A stretch of DNA of 64,000 nt from a virus: IMG/VR virus record IMGVR_UViG_3300037257_000055, positions 62,001 through 126,000 of that record, one strand, 5' to 3'. How positions within the stretch are numbered: position 1 is the stretch's first letter; every line of letters starts with the position of its first letter. The notes beneath the pieces are model-generated. The model saw nothing but the letters and a program-made list of their open reading frames with translations, was not told where the DNA came from and did not search any database. Of this stretch, positions 10,687 to 62,362 are shown in pieces. A program made the translations under genes and the position numbers.

Positions 10687-11169
10687 ATGGAAATATTAGA
10701 TTATTACAACGAAATTAAAAGTTATAAAAATAATGAATTAAAAAAGGTATTAGGAACGTACGGTTTTAATTACAAAGATAAAAAAATAGATTTGGTAAAG
10801 AAATGTATGGAACGAAAATATAATGAATTTTTTAGAAATAGAATAAAACTAAACAGTAATGAGATATTAAATAAAGCAAAAGAATATAAAACATTTGAAT
10901 CTTCAAGTGATGTTATAGGAACTTTGTGGATAGATGGTTGGATATTTTTAATTAATACTTCTATAGGTAAGTTTTGGTATTGCATAAGTAAAGACCGTGT
11001 TTATCCTACTGCAACTGGAACATCAAATCAAATAGATAGAGAAATTGATAGACTTGAAGAATATTTAAAAAATCATCAAGATTTTAAAACTGACTTAATT
11101 AATTATGGTGGATATATAAAGGAAAATTTTTTGTTTGATTGGAATGACTTTCAAAATTTAATACAGTAA
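10687..11169 (+). CDS. Hypothetical protein with SAP-like N terminus, 160 aa
   Basis: Residues 1-45 (YNEIKSYKNNELKKVLGTYG, then a second helix with LVKKCMERK) follow the helix-turn-helix pattern of SAP DNA-binding motifs. The remaining 110 residues have a Trp-rich beta core and are not recognised. A DNA-associated role is inferred only. Confidence 0.5.
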   Translation: MEILDYYNEIKSYKNNELKKVLGTYGFNYKDKKIDLVKKCMERKYNEFFRNRIKLNSNEILNKAKEYKTFESSSDVIGTLWIDGWIFLINTSIGKFWYCISKDRVYPTATGTSNQIDREIDRLEEYLKNHQDFKTDLINYGGYIKENFLFDWNDFQNLIQ

Positions 11170-28775: not shown

Positions 28776-28814
28776 TGTATAACATTTAATTATCAATAAA
28801 TTAATAAAATTATA

Positions 28815-28844
28815 TTGACAAGTAATTAGTAAATATGATAAGAT
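28815..28844 (+). promoter_or_regulatory. Sigma-A-type promoter of the 681-aa gene leader
   Basis: TTGACA, an 18-base spacer and TAAGAT. The predicted transcript starts at the 28851 hairpin. Confidence 0.75.
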
Positions 28845-28850
28845 GAAGAA

Positions 28851-28876
28851 GTGGTAAGGAATAACAAACTTACCAC
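28851..28876 (+). ncRNA. 5'-terminal RNA hairpin, loop GAATAACAAA
   Basis: GTGGTAAG and CTTACCAC pair perfectly over 8 bp. It begins six bases after the -10 element, so the RNA would start with it. A matching hairpin with the shared loop core AATAACA lies at 31781-31812. Confidence 0.6.
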
Positions 28877-29009
28877 TTACATAAAATATAATTGTTAATA
28901 AATTAATAAAAATACTAAGAATTATCAAATTAACAGATTTTAAGAATGGCTTAAACACTAGGATGTAGAAGTCGAAAAAGCCAATAAAAAGTATGTTTTA
29001 GCAAGACTT

Positions 29010-29024
29010 AACAAATTAATAGAA
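29010..29024 (+). repeat. Dispersed intergenic motif AACAAATTAATAGAA with upstream repeat
   Basis: It ends nine bases before the next -35 element. The preceding 85 bases (GGCTTAAACACTAGG, AAAAAGCCAATAAAAAG, GTTTTAGCAAGACTT) resemble stretches at 46712 and 62249. Confidence 0.65.
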
Positions 29025-29032
29025 ATAAACAC

Positions 29033-29061
29033 TTTACAAATGAAATTGTATGTGATATAGT
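29033..29061 (+). promoter_or_regulatory. Second sigma-A-type promoter before the 681-aa gene
   Basis: TTTACA, a 17-base spacer and TATAGT. The predicted RNA begins GTGGTAAGAATAA (29068), the same start as the upstream and 31748 promoters. Confidence 0.65.
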
Positions 29062-29088
29062 TAAAGAGTGGTAAGAATAAATTAATAG

Positions 29089-29201
29089 AATATGTTTTGC
29101 TGAGTAGAATAAACTACTCAAAAGTTTCATAGAAAACTCCTTTCAAAAGTAGTGTTAATGTAACAGTTAACCTACTCAGCAAAGCATATTAAATAAATGC
29201 T
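29089..29201 (+). ncRNA. Structured leader RNA, copy A
   Basis: The arms at 29089-29107 and 29172-29190 form a 19-bp helix with one G-U pair. Two competing pairings are visible: GAGTAG (29102) with the nearby CTACTC (29114), and AGCAT (29183) with ATGCT (29197). The enclosed 64 bases contain further small hairpins. Copy B before the Tad2-like gene has the same layout with compensatory changes in the helix. The remainder of the gap 28737-29249 holds only the promoters, hairpins and repeat listed here; no gene is visible on either strand. Confidence 0.65.
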
Positions 29202-29255
29202 CAATAAATTAAAGGGAAAATAAAATATACATATAAAATAAAGGAGTGAATGAAA

Positions 29256-31301
29256 ATGGAATTTAAAAATTTTAAAAAGGTGTTACAAGAAAACTTTAAA
29301 CAAATCACAAAGGATGCAGATTGCTTATTTGAGGTGAACGTAGATAAAGATGAATTATGGAATATTTACTTAGACAGTTTTCCAGAAGGTACAAATGAAC
29401 TTTACAGACAAAGAAGAGAATATGATTGTAGTTGTTGTAGACAATTCATTAAGAGTATTGGAAATGCAGTTATTATTAAAAATAATGAACTAACTACAAT
29501 ATGGGATTTTGATGCAAATAGTACAACCTTCCAACCAGTGGCAAATGCATTATCTGAATATGTTAAATCAAAAGCCATTACAGATATTTATATTAGCAAA
29601 TTTAAGAATATTGGTACTGATAGTAATAGAGAATTATTAGAAGACGGTTCAATAAATAAATATGAACATTTCTACTTAGAATTACCAGATAAATTTGTTG
29701 ATAGAAGTAGTAGATCAGAAGGTGATTTAAAAGGAACTTATAGAGATACAAGAAATGTATTTAAAAGGTCATTAGATGAAATTTCAGAAGAATCACTTTT
29801 AACAGTATTAGAATTAATATCATCTAATACATTATACAAAGGTGAAGAATGGAAAGGCGTTTTAAATGAATTCCTTAAATACAAGAAAGCTTATGATGAA
29901 TTACAAACACAAGAAGAGAAAGAAACTTATGCTTGGGAACAATCAGTAAAAGTTGGTGGTTCAATTGGAAGAATTAAAAACCATTCAATAGGAACATTAC
30001 TTATAAATATAAGTGAAGGAATGGATTTAGATACGGCAGTAAGAAAATATGAAGCGATAATTGCTCCTGAAAACTACAAACGTCCAAAGGCTATTTTTAC
30101 TAAAAAAATGTTAGAAGATGCTAAGAAAACAATAGAAGATTTAGGCTACTTAGATTCTTTACCAAGAAGACATGGAACTTTAGATGATATTTCTGTAAAT
30201 AATATATTATTCTCAAACAAGGACTCAGCTAAGAGAATACAAAATACAAATATATTTGATGAAATGTCAAGTTCAATTCCTATTAATCCTAAGAAATTCT
30301 CAAAGGTTGAAGAAATTGCAATAGAAGATTTTGTAAAGAATGTATTACCTACAACAAAGGAACTTGAAGTTTATCTTGAGAATAAACATTCTAGCAATAT
30401 GGTTTCATTGATAGCACCAGAGAATAAAGATGCTAAGACAATGTTTAAATGGAACAATCCTTTTAGTTGGGCTTATTCAGGTAATATAACAGACAGTTCT
30501 ATGAAAGATAGAGTTAAATCAGCAGGTGGTAATGTAGATGGTATATTAAGATTTTCTATTCAATGGAATGATGAAGAATATGATGGAAATGATTTAGATG
30601 CTCATTGTTATGAACCAAATGGAAATGAAATTTATTTTAGTAATAGTTGTAATAGGAATACTACTGGAGAATTAGATATAGATATTCAAAGTCCAAAACA
30701 TGGAATTCCAGCAGTTGAAAATATAACATGGACTGATAAAAATAAGATGAAAGAAGGGACATATAAATTCTTTGTTCATAACTATGCTAATAGAGGAGGA
30801 AGAACAGGATTTAAAGCAGAAATAGAATTTGATGGACAAATATACTCTTTTGATTATAATAGAGAATTAAAAAATAAAGAAAATGTAATGGTTGCAGAAG
30901 TCAATTTTAATAGAGAAACAGGTTTTACTATTAAAGAGTTATTACCATCAAGTGTTTCTTCAAAAGAAGTATGGAATTTAAAAACAAATCAATTTATACC
31001 AACAGGAGTTGTTATGTATTCACCTAATTACTGGGATGAACAACAAGGAATTGGTCATAGACATTACTTCTTTATGTTGAAAGATTGTGTTAATTCAGAG
31101 AAGCCAAATGGATTCTATAACGAGTTCTTAAAAGAAGACTTAATGAAACAAAAAAGAGTATTTGAAGCATTGGGTAGTAAGATGGCAGTAAAAGAAGTTG
31201 ATGACCAACTATCAGGATTAGGATTTAGTTCTACTAAAAGAAATGAATTGGTAGTTAAAGCAATAGGACAAACAGAACGTATACTAAAAATTAAATTTTA
31301 A
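29256..31301 (+). CDS. Large phage protein with DUF2135-like domain, 681 aa
   Basis: It resembles a family of uncharacterised proteins of large Firmicute phages. Residues about 425-560 ([44 protein letters not shown]) look like a DUF2135/YfaP-type beta sandwich, a domain otherwise known in von Willebrand-type proteins. The N-terminal 250 residues are charged and helical. The long, structured leader and two promoters suggest strong or tightly controlled expression. The ATG at 29256 suits AAGGAGTG (29241-29248) better than the one two codons earlier. The molecular role is unknown. Confidence 0.75.
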
Positions 31302-31336
31302 AATAAATTAATAAATAAGAAGGAGAATGATTAATT

Positions 31337-31729
31337 ATGAACACAGAAAAGAATGTTTTTGAGGTAGCTAGTAGGAATAAATTTAGGTTTGATTTTAGAG
31401 GACAACAACCAGTAGAAGAGTTATGGTCATTATCAGTTAAAGATTTAGATACAATTTTTAAAGGATTGAATTCACAACTAAAACAAGTGGAGGAAGAAAG
31501 CTTATTAGATACTAAAACACAAAAAGATGAAGAATTAGATATGAAAATTGAAATTGTAAAACATATAGTTAAAATAAAACAAGCTGAATCCAAATCAAGA
31601 GAAGATGCTAAAGCTAAAAAAGAACAAAAGCAAAAATTATTAGAAGCTTTAGACTTAAAAAAGAATGAGGATTTAAAAGGTAAGTCAGCAGAAGAAATTC
31701 AAAAGATGATAGATGAATTAGACAATTAA
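31337..31729 (+). CDS. Conserved phage protein, partner of the 681-aa protein, 130 aa
   Basis: A short conserved N-terminal segment (ASRNKFRFDFRGQQPVEELW, then SVKDLDTIF) is followed by a lysine- and glutamate-rich coiled coil. I associate this sequence type with phage genes that sit next to the 681-aa family. It lies 35 bases downstream in the same operon. Confidence 0.7.
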   Translation: MNTEKNVFEVASRNKFRFDFRGQQPVEELWSLSVKDLDTIFKGLNSQLKQVEEESLLDTKTQKDEELDMKIEIVKHIVKIKQAESKSREDAKAKKEQKQKLLEALDLKKNEDLKGKSAEEIQKMIDELDN

Positions 31730-31743
31730 ATAAATTAATAGAA
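31728..31743 (+). repeat. Dispersed intergenic motif AAATAAATTAATAGAA
   Basis: An exact copy overlapping the previous stop codon and ending four bases before the -35 element at 31748. Confidence 0.75.
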
Positions 31744-31747
31744 GTAG

Positions 31748-31776
31748 TTGACAAGTAATAAATAAGAGAGTAAAAT
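31748..31776 (+). promoter_or_regulatory. Sigma-A-type promoter of the Tad2/TnpB leader
   Basis: TTGACA, a 17-base spacer and TAAAAT. The RNA would start at or near the 31781 hairpin. Confidence 0.8.
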
Positions 31777-31780
31777 AACA

Positions 31781-31812
31781 GTTGTGGTAGAGAATAACAC
31801 CTTTACCACAAC
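31781..31812 (+). ncRNA. 5'-terminal RNA hairpin, loop AATAACAC
   Basis: GTTGTGGTA and TACCACAAC pair over 9 bp, extendable to 12 with one G-U pair. The loop core AATAACA and the GTGGTA stem match the hairpin at 28851, so the two are related. Confidence 0.6.
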
Positions 31813-31854
31813 ATACATAAAAGATTAAGTGAAATAAATTAATATAAACAGGAT

Positions 31855-32019
31855 AATATGTTTTAAAGAGTAGCTAATGACTACTCAATAGGGAAAGAAG
31901 AACTCTCAAAGGTTGATACCCAAGATTTTTAAGTTAGTACCAATTGCTTAAATCGGAGAATGTGCTGAAACGGTAAATTCAGCTATTCTTTAAAGCATAT
32001 TAACAAATTAAGAATGCTT
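31855..32019 (+). ncRNA. Structured leader RNA, copy B
   Basis: The arms at 31855-31874 and 31982-32001 form a 20-bp helix with two G-U pairs. Compared with copy A, four adjacent base pairs differ on both strands (GCTG/CAGC versus AAAG/CTTT). The same competing pairings exist: GAGTAG (31868) with CTACTC (31881), and AAGCAT (31993) with ATGCTT (32014). GCTGAA (31964) and TTCAGC (31978) form an inner hairpin overlapping the right arm. No gene is visible elsewhere in the 31730-32053 gap. Confidence 0.65.
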
Positions 32020-32035
32020 AAATAAATTAATAGAA
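32020..32035 (+). repeat. Dispersed intergenic motif AAATAAATTAATAGAA
   Basis: An exact copy between the end of structured leader B and the AAAAGGAG ribosome-binding site. Confidence 0.7.
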
Positions 32036-32053
32036 GAAAAGGAGAAATAAATT

Positions 32054-32365
32054 ATGAATTTTGGAAAAGCAGTAGAATTAACTAAACAAGGTAAACCAAT
32101 AGCTAGAGAAGGTTGGAATGGAAAAGGAATGCATGTATTTAGTTTCTATTTCTCAACATTAAAAATGAAAGCTGATGAGAATTTTACAGAAGAGTTATAT
32201 GATGTTTCTGAATTACAAGGAATTGTTGAAGTAGGAGTAGGTAAAACTACATATAAACTTGAAAATTTCTTATTATTAAAGACAGCAGGAAATACAGTTA
32301 TTCCTTGGAATGCTAGTCAAGCTGATACATTAGCCGAAGATTGGGTTGAAGTAAAAGTAGAGTAA
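32054..32365 (+). CDS. tad2: Tad2-type anti-Thoeris protein (DUF2829), 103 aa
   Basis: DUF2829 proteins of this type sequester the gcADPR signal made by Thoeris ThsB, preventing ThsA activation. The family signature is clear: MNFGKAVELTKQGKPIAREG then WNGKGM at the N terminus, and IPWNASQADTLAEDWVEV at the C terminus. Length is typical. It is the first gene after promoter 31748 and leader B, so its expression is probably controlled at RNA level. The anti-defence role is known for some members and inferred here. Confidence 0.88.
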   Translation: MNFGKAVELTKQGKPIAREGWNGKGMHVFSFYFSTLKMKADENFTEELYDVSELQGIVEVGVGKTTYKLENFLLLKTAGNTVIPWNASQADTLAEDWVEVKVE

Positions 32366-32404
32366 TTAAAGAAAAATGACACAAGATTGAAAGGAGGTGA
32401 TAAC

Positions 32405-33625
32405 ATTAAAACTCAAAGAGTCGAAAGACATATAATAGATAAAAACCACAAAGCATGGAAATTGTTTGATGAGTATTGTTTTAAAGCTAAGAACATTTAC
32501 AATCTAGCGAATTATACTCAAAGACAATTATTTGTAAGAGGTAGTCCAATATTACAATATGTGGAGTTGTCAAAGGAACTTAATAAGACTGAGGCTTTCA
32601 AAGATATAGGTTCAAATTCAGCACAAATGACATTGAGATTGCTTTGTAAAGATTGGAAGTCATTCTTAGTAAGTGTAAAAGATTATTGGAAACATCCAAA
32701 CAAATATCTTGGAAAACCAAAATTACCTAGATATAAAAAGAAAAATGGTAGACATATTTTTATAATGACTAATATGCAAACCCATTTATATGATGGATAT
32801 TTATACTTTGCTTTTATACCACTAAAAGGACTGAATAACTTATTTAAAACCAATGTTAAAAATAAACTATTACAAACTAGAATTATTCCAAAAGGTTCAA
32901 CTTACATATTAGAAATAGTTTATGAGATTGAAGTTCAAGAGCCTAAAGAATTCAATAACAGAATATTAGGGATTGATTTAGGAGTAGATAACCTAGCTAC
33001 ATGCGTTAATAATGTAGGTGTACAACCTATCATTATAAATGGTAAAGTTATCAAATCTATAAATCAATATTACAATAAGAAGAAAGCTAAATTACAGTCG
33101 GATTTAAAGAAACGACATAAAAAGGACTGGAGCAATAAGTTAGATAAATTACAACAAGATAGAGATAATAAAATAAATTATTATTTACATAATGCTAGTA
33201 AATCTATAGTTACTTATGCGGAAGGATTAAATATTACGATCATAGTAATTGGTTTGAATAAAACTTGGAAACAGGAAAGTGGTTTATTCAAATCAGCTAA
33301 TCAGAATTTTATATCAATTCCATATGATAAATTAATAAAAATGATTACATATAAGTGTTCTAATATAGGAATTAAAGTAATAACTAATAACGAAAGTTAT
33401 ACGAGTGGTTGTAGTTTTTTAGATAATGAAGTAATAGGTAAAGATACATATAATAAAAGCAGACGTGTAGTAAGAGGTTTATTTAAATCTAATACAAACA
33501 AACTAATTAATTCAGATGTTAATGGAGCTTATAATATAATTAAAAAGGTATTTTCAGAAGCTTTTAAAGTAGATGAAATAGAGGGTGTACATTTACATCC
33601 AATAAGAGTTAGTATGACTTGTTAA
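32405..33625 (+). CDS. tnpB: TnpB-type RNA-guided nuclease, probable ATT start, 406 aa
   Basis: TnpB proteins use a short RNA to cut DNA. The RuvC core is visible: ILGIDLGVDNLAT (about residues 188-200), VIGLNKTWKQE, NESYTSGCSFLD and INSDVNGAYNI near the C terminus with its final Asp. The CxxC zinc ribbon of most TnpBs is absent. The related branch I recall has the same YTS-SFLD segment, with an acidic residue relocated there. A perfect AAAGGAGGTGA (32390-32400) points to an ATT at 32405; TTG at 32387 is the only alternative. No tnpA or insertion-sequence ends are visible. It lies 39 bases after tad2, probably on the same transcript. Confidence 0.82.
   Translation: MKTQRVERHIIDKNHKAWKLFDEYCFKAKNIYNLANYTQRQLFVRGSPILQYVELSKELNKTEAFKDIGSNSAQMTLRLLCKDWKSFLVSVKDYWKHPNKYLGKPKLPRYKKKNGRHIFIMTNMQTHLYDGYLYFAFIPLKGLNNLFKTNVKNKLLQTRIIPKGSTYILEIVYEIEVQEPKEFNNRILGIDLGVDNLATCVNNVGVQPIIINGKVIKSINQYYNKKKAKLQSDLKKRHKKDWSNKLDKLQQDRDNKINYYLHNASKSIVTYAEGLNITIIVIGLNKTWKQESGLFKSANQNFISIPYDKLIKMITYKCSNIGIKVITNNESYTSGCSFLDNEVIGKDTYNKSRRVVRGLFKSNTNKLINSDVNGAYNIIKKVFSEAFKVDEIEGVHLHPIRVSMTC
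33583..33600 (+). ncRNA. Hairpin at the 3' end of tnpB, possible guide-RNA scaffold element
   Basis: GGGTGTA and TACATCC pair over 7 bp with one G-U and a 4-base loop, 25 bases before the tnpB stop. TnpB guide RNAs are usually transcribed across the 3' end of the gene, so this is a candidate scaffold piece. The boundary and any guide cannot be located from sequence alone. Confidence 0.35.
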
Positions 33626-34053: not shown

Positions 34054-34067
34054 TATAGTATAAAATT

Positions 34068-34100
34068 GCATTAATGATTAGTTTTGTAAGACTAAAATGC
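34068..34100 (+). terminator. Nested hairpin before the replication module
   Basis: GCATT/AATGC (outer) and TTAGT/ACTAA (inner) pair around a TTTGTAAG loop. No T tract follows. Confidence 0.4.
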
Positions 34101-34138
34101 GTATTATAAATAAATTAATATTAAACAAATTATTAGGG

Positions 34139-50833: not shown

Positions 50834-51013
50834 ATGCCAAAGGATTTAAGATGCTTTGAATATGAGGAAAGAAAAGCTTTATACTACAGATTAAATACAG
50901 TACAAGGTTGGATTTAAGAAATGTTAAAAGAAGGATTAATAAATGATAAGTGGGATTGTGGATGAAAGAGTCCCAAGATATATTAAAGAATGTAAAAGAA
51001 CAATTGTATTAAA
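50834..51013 (+). pseudogene. Remnant of a small gene with stop codon and frameshift
   Basis: After AAAGGTGG, ATG at 50834 opens MPKDLRCFEYEERKALYYRL and continues to a TAA at 50915. The same frame then goes on in a coding-like way (EMLKEGLINDKWDCG) to a TGA near 50960, and a shifted frame continues with MKESQDILKNVKEQLY to about 51013. Together they read as one helical protein of about 60 residues broken by a nonsense change and a frameshift. The 27-residue first part could still be expressed. Confidence 0.5.
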
Positions 51014-51029
51014 AGGAGGACAAATAAGA

Positions 51030-51713
51030 ATGAATATTAAAGAATGTAGAAAAGAAACTCAGAAACATATTGACAATGTAAAGAATATATTGAACAAATG
51101 GAGTTTAGACTTAGAACAAAGAGGTAAACTTCATGATAAAAGTAAATTAGAAAGTCCTGAAGTAGAAATATTTTGTGAATATACTCCTAAATTAGTTGGA
51201 AGTACATATGGAAGTGATGAATATAAGGAATTCCTTAAAGAAATGCAAGTAGCATTAAGTCATCATTATAATTCAAATAGACATCATCCAGAACACTTTA
51301 GAAATGGAATACAAGGCATGACTTTAATTGATATTATGGAATTATTAGCTGATTTGAAGTCTGCAACTTTGAGGCATAATGATGGTGATTTAATTAGAAG
51401 TATTAATTTTAATCAAGAAAGATTTGGATATGATAATGATGTAAAACAAATCTTATTAAATACTGCTGAATTACTATATACATATAAGATATTCTTTGGT
51501 TGTTGTGATGGCAGAGAGGGAATGTATTTATCAGATACTATTGAAGGTGTTCACAAGAAAATTGATGAAGATCAACAATTAGATGAGACAGAAAAACGAA
51601 TATTGAAATTTGGATATTTTCATGAGTTTAAAGATAAAGACTATCATGATGAACATTTTTGTGTTGATAATGCTTTTGACTGTTACTGGTATAAGCAAAG
51701 TTATTTTAATTAG
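51030..51713 (+). CDS. DUF5662-type HD-like phage protein, 227 aa
   Basis: The family signature is clear: GKLHDKSKLESPE (about residues 29-41), ALSHHYNSNRHHPEHF (about 75-90), then MTLIDIMELLADLKSATLRH. The His and Asp residues are placed as in HD-type metal sites, but the activity is unknown. It shares this layout with the protein at 4589. The ATG at 51030 follows AAAAGGAGG; earlier codons in the frame run through the broken gene upstream. Confidence 0.82.
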   Translation: MNIKECRKETQKHIDNVKNILNKWSLDLEQRGKLHDKSKLESPEVEIFCEYTPKLVGSTYGSDEYKEFLKEMQVALSHHYNSNRHHPEHFRNGIQGMTLIDIMELLADLKSATLRHNDGDLIRSINFNQERFGYDNDVKQILLNTAELLYTYKIFFGCCDGREGMYLSDTIEGVHKKIDEDQQLDETEKRILKFGYFHEFKDKDYHDEHFCVDNAFDCYWYKQSYFN

Positions 51714-62242: not shown

Positions 62243-62249
62243 TTAACAA

Positions 62250-62327
62250 TGTGGCTATTACTAGCTTACAGAGGTCGAATATTCAAATAAATTGCTGATT
62301 TTACCAAGAGTTAATAAATTAATAGAA
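62250..62327 (+). repeat. Extended copy of the dispersed intergenic repeat
   Basis: It begins GTGGCTATTACTAGC with a GCTA-TTAC-TAGC hairpin, also seen as GGCTCTATTACTAGC at 16398. It ends GATTTTACCAAGAGTT and AATAAATTAATAGAA (62313-62327). Confidence 0.65.
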
Positions 62328-62362
62328 CATAAAAACAATAAATAAAGGAGAGTGTATTAAAA

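Follow-up and report, generated by a model that had tools for sequence, protein, structure and literature searches.

The DNA analysed here (the window) is a 64-kb stretch of a large Clostridium-like phage of 141 kb. On its + strand, which carries all of the features described below, lie a gene for a 681-aa protein (phrog_1735, unknown function; 29256..31301), a gene encoding a Tad2-like Thoeris anti-defence domain (32054..32365; PF11195, E 2.5e-21) and a tnpB-like gene with OrfB_IS605 and Cas12f1-like TNB domains (32387..33625). The same kind of folded leader RNA was found to precede the 681-aa gene (leader 1) and the tad2-tnpB pair (leader 2).

Leader 1 opens with a promoter identified by consensus scan, TTGACA-18-TAAGAT, in which a TG precedes the second hexamer (28815..28844), and the expected RNA start coincides with a 5'-terminal hairpin of 10 bp, AAGTGGTAAG/CTTACCACTT (28849..28878), identified from folds and covariation. 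Between this hairpin and a long helix (P1) lies a conserved element, M2 (AAGAATGGCTTAAACACTAGG...AAAAAGTATGTTTTA; 28936..29009), made of two hairpins. The first round of the M2 profile was used alone, as later iterations drifted into linker and promoter sequence; M2 is also kin to elements located 3' of genes elsewhere in these phages. A second promoter, TTTACA-17-TATAGT (29033..29061; consensus scan), is located just 5' of P1 and is matched in position and sequence type in the related contigs L110 and L063, and its expected start is the second GTGGTA of the leader (29069-29074). The cassettes are bounded by a linker of 12-15 nt, AAYAAATTAAYRGAA, and in leader 1 the linker AATAAATTAATAGAA (29076..29090) abuts the 5' side of P1. 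The left and right arms of P1, seen in both the sequence and the folds, enclose two predicted inner hairpins, P2 (29113..29153) and P3 (29154..29171), the latter abutting the right arm.

Leader 2 has a similar layout, with a promoter (TTGACA-17-TAAAAT; 31748..31776; consensus scan), a 10-bp 5'-terminal hairpin opened by GTGGTA (TTGTGGTAGA/TTTACCACAA; 31782..31811; folds and covariation) and the two arms of P1. In this case, the predicted P3 (GCTGAA/TTCAGC; 31964..31983) has its final three bases within the right arm. The inner region of leader 2 is highly similar in L060 only, and a search for its exact inner motif among viral contigs returned L060 alone; given that confinement, a wider group-I-intron-like or aptamer reading of this interior found no support.

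The preliminary description had placed a promoter 5' of both leaders and an RNA start at GTGGTA, and the scan agreed on both counts, with predicted starts about 7 nt 3' of the -10 boxes, at or adjoining GTGGTA. Promoter-like sites were no more numerous overall than in shuffles; the three leader promoters were among the four best + strand sites of the scan and recur in relatives. Promoters with TTGACA equivalent to the first promoter of leader 1 also stand 5' of the same hairpin in L063, L110, L484, L083, L060 and L024. The GTGGTA-opened 10-bp hairpin of both leaders, together with M2 in leader 1, had not been part of that description.

The long-range helix reported earlier was recovered from sequence and folds in both leaders, as 19 uninterrupted bp in leader 1 (29089-29107/29172-29190, with one U.G) and as 22 uninterrupted bp in leader 2 (31854-31875/31981-32002, with two wobbles), the latter being slightly longer than first claimed. 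Stems of these lengths were unmatched in 300 dinucleotide shuffles per leader (largest 18 and 15 bp), and the folding z-scores of the leaders were -3.3 to -3.8. The helix ends are exactly identical in the two leaders, AATATGTTTT/AAAGCATATT, as had been stated. A compensatory change in the middle was also borne out, with both strands altered, except that it spans three consecutive pairs (GCT/AGC versus AAA/TTT) and not four; the G-C pair that follows is unchanged, and another G-C has become G.U.

Pattern searches located the module in other phage contigs, 5' of different genes. In these related phages P1 is situated 33-65 nt 5' of the start codon in several genes that are unrelated to one another, and the genes 3' of the module vary (phrog_1735, tad2, DUF444 and others), while the module is always sense to the gene 3' of P1. 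The leader was absent upstream of homologues of the 681-aa protein in 43 viral contigs, indicating that it does not travel with that gene. Across seven copies P1 forms a near-perfect duplex of 19-22 bp, interrupted at most by a 1x1 or 2x2 loop: a total of about 20 bp is kept even in L484, which has a 1x1 mismatch, and in L083, where a stem and a 2x2 internal loop are followed by 7 more bp. The lower ten pairs (AATATG.../...CATATT) are almost fixed in sequence.

Among six distinct versions of P1, 97.4% of cells were paired, compared with 88.2 +/- 2.0 in shuffles, and six pairs were changed on both sides, with 0/500 shuffles as good. The covariation score was 0.365 versus 0.179 in shuffles, and slid controls were 37-54% paired. 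The pairs comprised 101 Watson-Crick, 9 G.U, 0 A.C and 1 other; since every non-Watson-Crick pair but one reads as G.U in the transcript, with A.C never seen, it is the RNA that is selected. The 5'-terminal hairpin behaved in the same manner, with 97.5% of cells paired over eight copies and a covariation score of 0.411 versus 0.202 in shuffles. The earlier claim that the pairing itself is conserved therefore extends, through compensatory changes, to further phage contigs. A lack of more copies, or arms diverging without compensation, had been named as the outcome that would speak against the element; copies exist, and their arms diverge with compensation.

The alternative pairings said to compete with P1 are present in both leaders. 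In leader 1, GAGTAG (29102-29107) can pair with CTACTC (29114-29119), which lies within P2, and AGCAT (29183-29187) with ATGCT (29197-29201), the latter forming a competing 3' hairpin (29183..29201). In leader 2, the corresponding pairs are GAGTAG (31868-31873) with CTACTC (31881-31886) and AAGCAT (31993-31998) with ATGCTT (32014-32019; hairpin 31993..32019, from folds and flank shuffling). The right-hand hairpin, which overlaps the 3' arm of P1, was kept in all seven full copies, surviving in L484 by a register shift (TAAGC/GCTTA). By flank shuffling, the chance of such a hairpin in a single sequence is 1.5-12% per copy, and the copies share ancestry. The left-hand hairpin was perfect in 4/7 copies, imperfect in L063 and L110 through an A-C mismatch, and absent in L484. 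In the folds, giving up P1 costs 20-27 kcal/mol, or 11 kcal/mol in L083, the shortest version, and at this modelled stability P1 would not toggle at equilibrium.

No convincing terminator was detected between P1 and the gene by terminator scan. The sole pass of a loose scan was GCTGAA/TTCAGC-TATTCTTTAA in leader 2, a weak terminator-like match that corresponds to P3, and the equivalent position is not U-rich in leader 1, L063 or L110. A G+C-rich hairpin with a U run, exclusive with an antiterminator, as in an intrinsic-terminator attenuator, was not found in the leaders. No sequestered Shine-Dalgarno site was seen, this site being free of structure in the copies inspected. Leader-peptide attenuation was likewise rejected, as inspection turned up no short reading frame that was both conserved and preceded by a proper ribosome-binding site. 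The proposal of a regulatory switch consequently holds up only in part: the right-hand alternative is present in 7/7 copies, and against it stand the stability of P1, the missing junction core, the incomplete left-hand alternative and the lack of an expression platform.

The earlier statement that the leaders belong to no known riboswitch family held, with 0 matches to Rfam 15 covariance models at the gathering score over the whole window. Permissive Rfam scans of both leaders returned none, and those of L484, L483 and L060 gave sub-threshold, chance-level matches only. Neither the 391 Clostridia genomes nor three further single genomes matched in a covariance search, run without a positive control genome, and BLAST of the leaders against phage and plasmid collections returned nothing convincing. 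Two further approaches were set aside: a loose pattern, ATATGYTTT-N75-105-AAAGCATAT, which in viral and genome contigs gave mostly self-palindromic chance matches among the matches listed, and an all-against-all intergenic clustering, which collapsed into a single cluster through shared promoters and AT content. The leaders thus represent a covariation-supported phage RNA element absent from Rfam, placed 5' of an anti-defence gene and of a conserved gene of unknown function.

One interpretation of these data, which we favour tentatively and at somewhat less than even confidence, is that the element is a modular, conserved phage leader RNA, cut by host RNase III to yield a hairpin-capped, stabilised mRNA, and not a metabolite switch. 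Transcription would begin at the GTGGTA hairpin, P1 would form while the leader is being transcribed, and host RNase III would cleave the duplex of about two turns. In the downstream mRNA fragment, rid of the left arm, the first bases, AAGCAT...ATGCTT, could then form a hairpin at the new 5' end, with the Shine-Dalgarno site lying open beyond it; this hairpin may guard the message against attack by 5' exonuclease (RNase J) and uncouple it from the leader. Recombination at the short linker would move the cassette between genes. When fragments were cut in silico just before AAGCAT, 7/7 formed a hairpin 0-2 nt from the 5' end (-3.0 to -5.9 kcal/mol). The sequence also displays what RNase III would act upon, a duplex of about two turns within a transcript under RNA-level selection for pairing (covariation, and G.U in preference to A.C). 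The variety of downstream genes is easier to reconcile with an mRNA element of general use than with a ligand sensor. Several points count against the processing model. None of six phage records encodes an RNase III, so a host enzyme would be needed. A conserved end sequence is unneeded at a processing site, yet the lower end of P1 is nearly fixed. The chance of the 3' hairpin by flank shuffling, given above, is not tiny, and no more than two full copies were found in any genome, so that the module does not serve these phages as a processing signal in general.

RNase III processing is known for the early mRNAs of the phages SP82 (Bacillus), T7 and lambda, at leaders as well as at intergenic helices. 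As in those leaders, a long intramolecular helix lies 5' of a gene on a phage mRNA, and cleavage would free a structured 5' end ahead of the ribosome-binding site; unlike them, the present leaders have a multi-hairpin interior, a sequence-conserved lower end and a refoldable 3' arm, and cleavage is here predicted. Processing of T7 and lambda RNA has been noted (PMC3531473). The long-range intramolecular substrates of B. subtilis RNase III have helices of 10-36 bp, their cuts lie as much as 505 nt apart, and U-G wobbles are favoured in the distal box (PMC11780869); the length and spacing of P1 fall inside these limits. In the same organism, 5' stem-loops on the processed RNAs cggR and glnRA raise product abundance, as is predicted here for the hairpin that would cap the cut fragment; in those two cases RNase Y, and not RNase III, makes the cut, and no matching phage example is given there (PMC11780869). 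If the leader is indeed a processing and protection cassette, it would offer a compact test case for gene-by-gene control of message lifetime in Gram-positive phages. It could also be, at low confidence, that the covarying helix and the competing 5'-cap hairpin form a one-way switch driven by a nuclease or another factor, defining a new transferable leader family that times single genes, including tad2, as linker-bounded cassettes exchanged between phages.

A passive structure, in which the 5' hairpin and P1 simply protect the leader and keep translation of the gene independent of upstream sequence, with neither cleavage nor switching, is unlikely. It would suit the great stability of P1, the free Shine-Dalgarno site and the differing downstream genes, but leaves unexplained both the retention, in all seven copies, of a 3' hairpin that competes with P1 and why the lower helix is fixed in sequence. 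A two-state switch, in which a phage protein, a trans-acting RNA or co-transcriptional kinetics would decide between P1 and the two short hairpins, is slightly less likely again. The pairings are mutually exclusive, and by inspection the end of M2 in leader 1 (AGTATGTTTTA) could pair with the right arm too; however, the energetic preference for P1 and the incompleteness of the left-hand alternative described above argue against it, and neither state visibly hides the Shine-Dalgarno site or builds a convincing terminator.

We regard as improbable a cis-acting antitermination RNA that engages RNA polymerase directly past a strong promoter, as do HK022 put and the Bacillus EAR/LoaP-type leaders. 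Structured RNA directly 3' of a strong phage or operon promoter is common to all of these, and different phages have kept both M2 and the 5' hairpin, but no downstream terminators that would need read-through were demonstrated, P1 conserves pairing and not exposed sequence, and, unlike put, EAR or LoaP-type RNAs, the leaders gave no sequence or structure match in the Rfam scans. To our knowledge, none of the features specific to such antitermination RNAs is present in them.

A new class of metabolite riboswitch, in which P1 would close an aptamer built as a three-way junction with P2 and P3, is highly improbable. A junction with P3 abutting P1 was predicted in leader 1 (win1), L063 and L110, the element lies in cis 5' of genes, and the 3' arm of P1 is shared with a competing hairpin as in riboswitches; unlike riboswitches, P1 is 19-22 bp long, no invariant junction core was found in the inner regions of win1, L063/L110, L484, win2/L060 and L083, and P2 and P3 are both missing from L083. 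The downstream genes belong to no common pathway. The preliminary suggestion of a ligand as the common theme thus found no support, given the overly stable helix, the lack of a conserved core and the lack of a terminator or sequestered Shine-Dalgarno site. An inverted repeat acting as DNA (a protein-binding site, recombination site or miniature mobile element) is already disfavoured and about as improbable, since selection on DNA would not favour G.U over A.C on the coding strand and the module is always in sense orientation, even though direct linker repeats flank it and the same locus in L024 has one linker and no P1.

The linker occurs in 77 same-strand intergenic copies in this phage and in five relatives, and its copies in the window number 51 versus 10 expected. 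The linker around the leaders suggests intergenic regions assembled from exchangeable units in these phages; if so, this would bear on the swapping of regulatory modules between phage genomes. Other copies around the two leaders lie at 28795, 28897, 29010, 31729, 31833 and 32021, and a linker-like ACAAATTAAG occupies the loop of the competing 3' hairpin of leader 2, leaving its stem undamaged.

The long-range helix (P1) put forward in the preliminary description was present in both leader RNAs, with 19 uninterrupted pairs in the leader upstream of the 681-aa gene (leader 1; 29089-29107 with 29172-29190) and 22 in that upstream of tad2-tnpB (leader 2; 31854-31875 with 31981-32002). Among 300 dinucleotide shuffles made of each leader, none had a stem as long as the real one. 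Three consecutive pairs, rather than the four originally described, are changed on both strands between the leaders, and one more pair is G-C in one leader and G.U in the other. The shorter pairings proposed to compete with the left and right arms of P1 were also found in their proposed places in both leaders. A 10-bp hairpin (GTGGTA...TACCAC) that covaries among eight copies lies at the expected RNA starts, and leader 1 carries a second promoter directly 5' of P1, with a conserved element termed M2 (AAGAATGGCTTAAACACTAGG...AAAAAGTATGTTTTA) between the 5'-terminal hairpin and this promoter. All three promoters have GTGGTA at the predicted start point (28851-28856, 29069-29074 and 31784-31789), with the TACCAC partner at only two.

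The window comprises bases 62001-126000 of a record of 140,944 bases with 25% G+C. Leader 1 precedes the gene for the 681-aa protein (phrog_1735), for which the nearest annotated phage is Clostridioides phage pCD1602_4 (~70% DNA identity), suggesting a Clostridium-like host, and leader 2 precedes a Tad2-like gene (PF11195) and a tnpB-like gene. Viral contigs were scanned using the 5' hairpin, M2 and the 3' end of P1 as queries, and the full P1 module was identified in contigs L063 (218 kb), L110 (84 kb), L484 (196 kb) and L060 (130 kb), together with a short form in L083 and its near-identical counterpart, contig L115. The downstream gene is a 76-aa ORF in L063, encodes one small protein common to L110, L484 and L060, and encodes a DUF444 protein in L083; the leader was not found before the 681-aa homologues in the 43 contigs encoding them, where the contig includes the upstream region.

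A covariance model built from copies of the P1 module was used to search six phage records, which did not include L083, and returned six full copies, all among its own building sequences. One further weak match, at 10924-11042 of the record (outside the window) and at the same locus in phage record G009, was seen by inspection to contain AGTATG/CATATT and an AGCAT/ATGCT hairpin. A covariance search of 391 Clostridia genomes, which had no positive control, gave no match. A reduced relative of the module, consisting of AAAGTATG/CATATT, a AGCATattaaATGCT hairpin and a 12-15 nt repeat (the linker) without the long helix, was noted at 10970-11040 of record G000 (outside the window; L002) and at L514:8120-8180, and an exact copy of the 21-base M2 core (AAGAATGGCTTAAACACTAGG) lies at L483:693-713, in an 11.5-kb contig without the rest of the leader.

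Across six distinct versions of P1, which are few and related and whose arms were put in register by hand beforehand, 97.4% of cells were paired and 6 of the 19 pairs were altered on both sides. None of 500 shuffles equalled the observed pairing or covariation score, and sliding one strand by 1-3 columns lowered pairing to 37-54%. Of the arm pairs, 101 were Watson-Crick, nine were G.U as read on the coding strand and one was another mismatch; none was A.C. A bias to G.U rather than A.C is not what selection on DNA or on the antisense RNA would produce, so it is the sense RNA that is under selection. The covariation bears out the earlier claim that the pairing is conserved, and a conserved RNA element very probably exists.

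Every one of the seven copies can form the right alternative (AAGCAT/ATGCTT), in a shifted register in L484 (TAAGC/GCTTA) and with a linker-like insertion in the loop, the stem unbroken, in leader 2. Since flank shuffles gave an equally good hairpin in 1.5-12% of cases per copy, its joint conservation is suggestive, not proof. In a published transcriptome map of B. subtilis, the long-range intramolecular helices cleaved by RNase III measured 10-36 bp and their cleavage sites lay as much as 505 nt apart, and a stem-loop capping the 5' end created by RNase Y cleavage made the processed mRNA more abundant (PMC11780869). A cut in or above the middle of P1 would leave a downstream RNA beginning near AAGCAT, and in 7/7 copies the right alternative is predicted to form no more than two bases from the 5' end of this fragment. 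P1 would then act before the cut and the right alternative after it, which would explain why both incompatible pairings are kept. We regard this processing mechanism, from the cleavage and the nuclease responsible to the stabilisation of the product, as possible but somewhat short of probable; no phage-encoded RNase III gene was found in these phages.

Both leaders, L060 and L083 (five pairs in the last) carry a perfect left alternative (GAGTAG/CTACTC); L063 and L110 contain an A-C mismatch in it, and L484 lacks it. When P1 was forbidden, the folding energy rose by 19.9-26.8 kcal/mol per copy (11.1 in L083). Neither state hides the Shine-Dalgarno site, P1 lies 33-65 nt from the start codon, and the sole terminator-like match is weak and inside leader 2. 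The copies share no conserved junction core. For these reasons a metabolite riboswitch is unlikely and an equilibrium switch implausible. No Rfam family fits the leaders, in line with the preliminary description, which recognised no known riboswitch family, and a literature search found no published description of this leader RNA; a structured, probably processed phage leader is a known kind of thing, not new, but the family itself appears new.

Parts of both leaders are separated by the linker AAYAAATTAAYRGAA, which has 51 matches in the window (up to two mismatches; for example at 2032, 3657, 14557, 29076, 31729, 32021, 46766, 49971 and 62313); 10 would be expected, and 50 of the matches fall on the coding strand. 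The whole 141-kb record holds 77 same-strand intergenic copies against eight in coding DNA, which makes up 85% of it; five relatives have the same bias (35, 37, 81, 81 and 23 copies), and the linker is common to six phage records (this record, G001, G002, G006, G008 and G009). Linkers lie at stop codons and 14-31 nt 5' of start codons, just before Shine-Dalgarno sites, and flank promoter and hairpin cassettes on both sides; candidate roles are a recombination boundary, an RNA processing site or a translation element. Contig L024 matches the gene order of the window as far as leader 2, including the same upstream gene, and at L024:2010-2110 (compared with window 31782-32054) has the 5' hairpin followed by a single linker and then by another gene than in the window, without P1, whereas in the window P1 is flanked by two linkers. 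The L024 locus is apparently an empty site or replacement point, and the difference is consistent with the cassette having been either gained or lost through recombination at linkers.

M2 (28936-29009) belongs to a recurring two-hairpin intergenic element, mostly ending at a linker, of the form AAnAATGrGGCTATnACTAGnnTGTAGCC... followed by AAAAnnnnnnTTTTA. About 25 copies in five phages passed a first profile search; some have a terminator-type U run, which most lack. Such elements follow genes at window 62244-62331 (record 124244-124331) and record 80324-80413, 108711-108781 and 50997-51078, and also occur in G001, G002, G006 and G008. A further common intergenic hairpin, TTGCATTA...ATGC, adjoins linkers in several of these phages and lies at 34062-34110 in the window, with similar hairpins at L060:2997-3040, L110:4920-4945 (minus strand) and L024:2735-2780.
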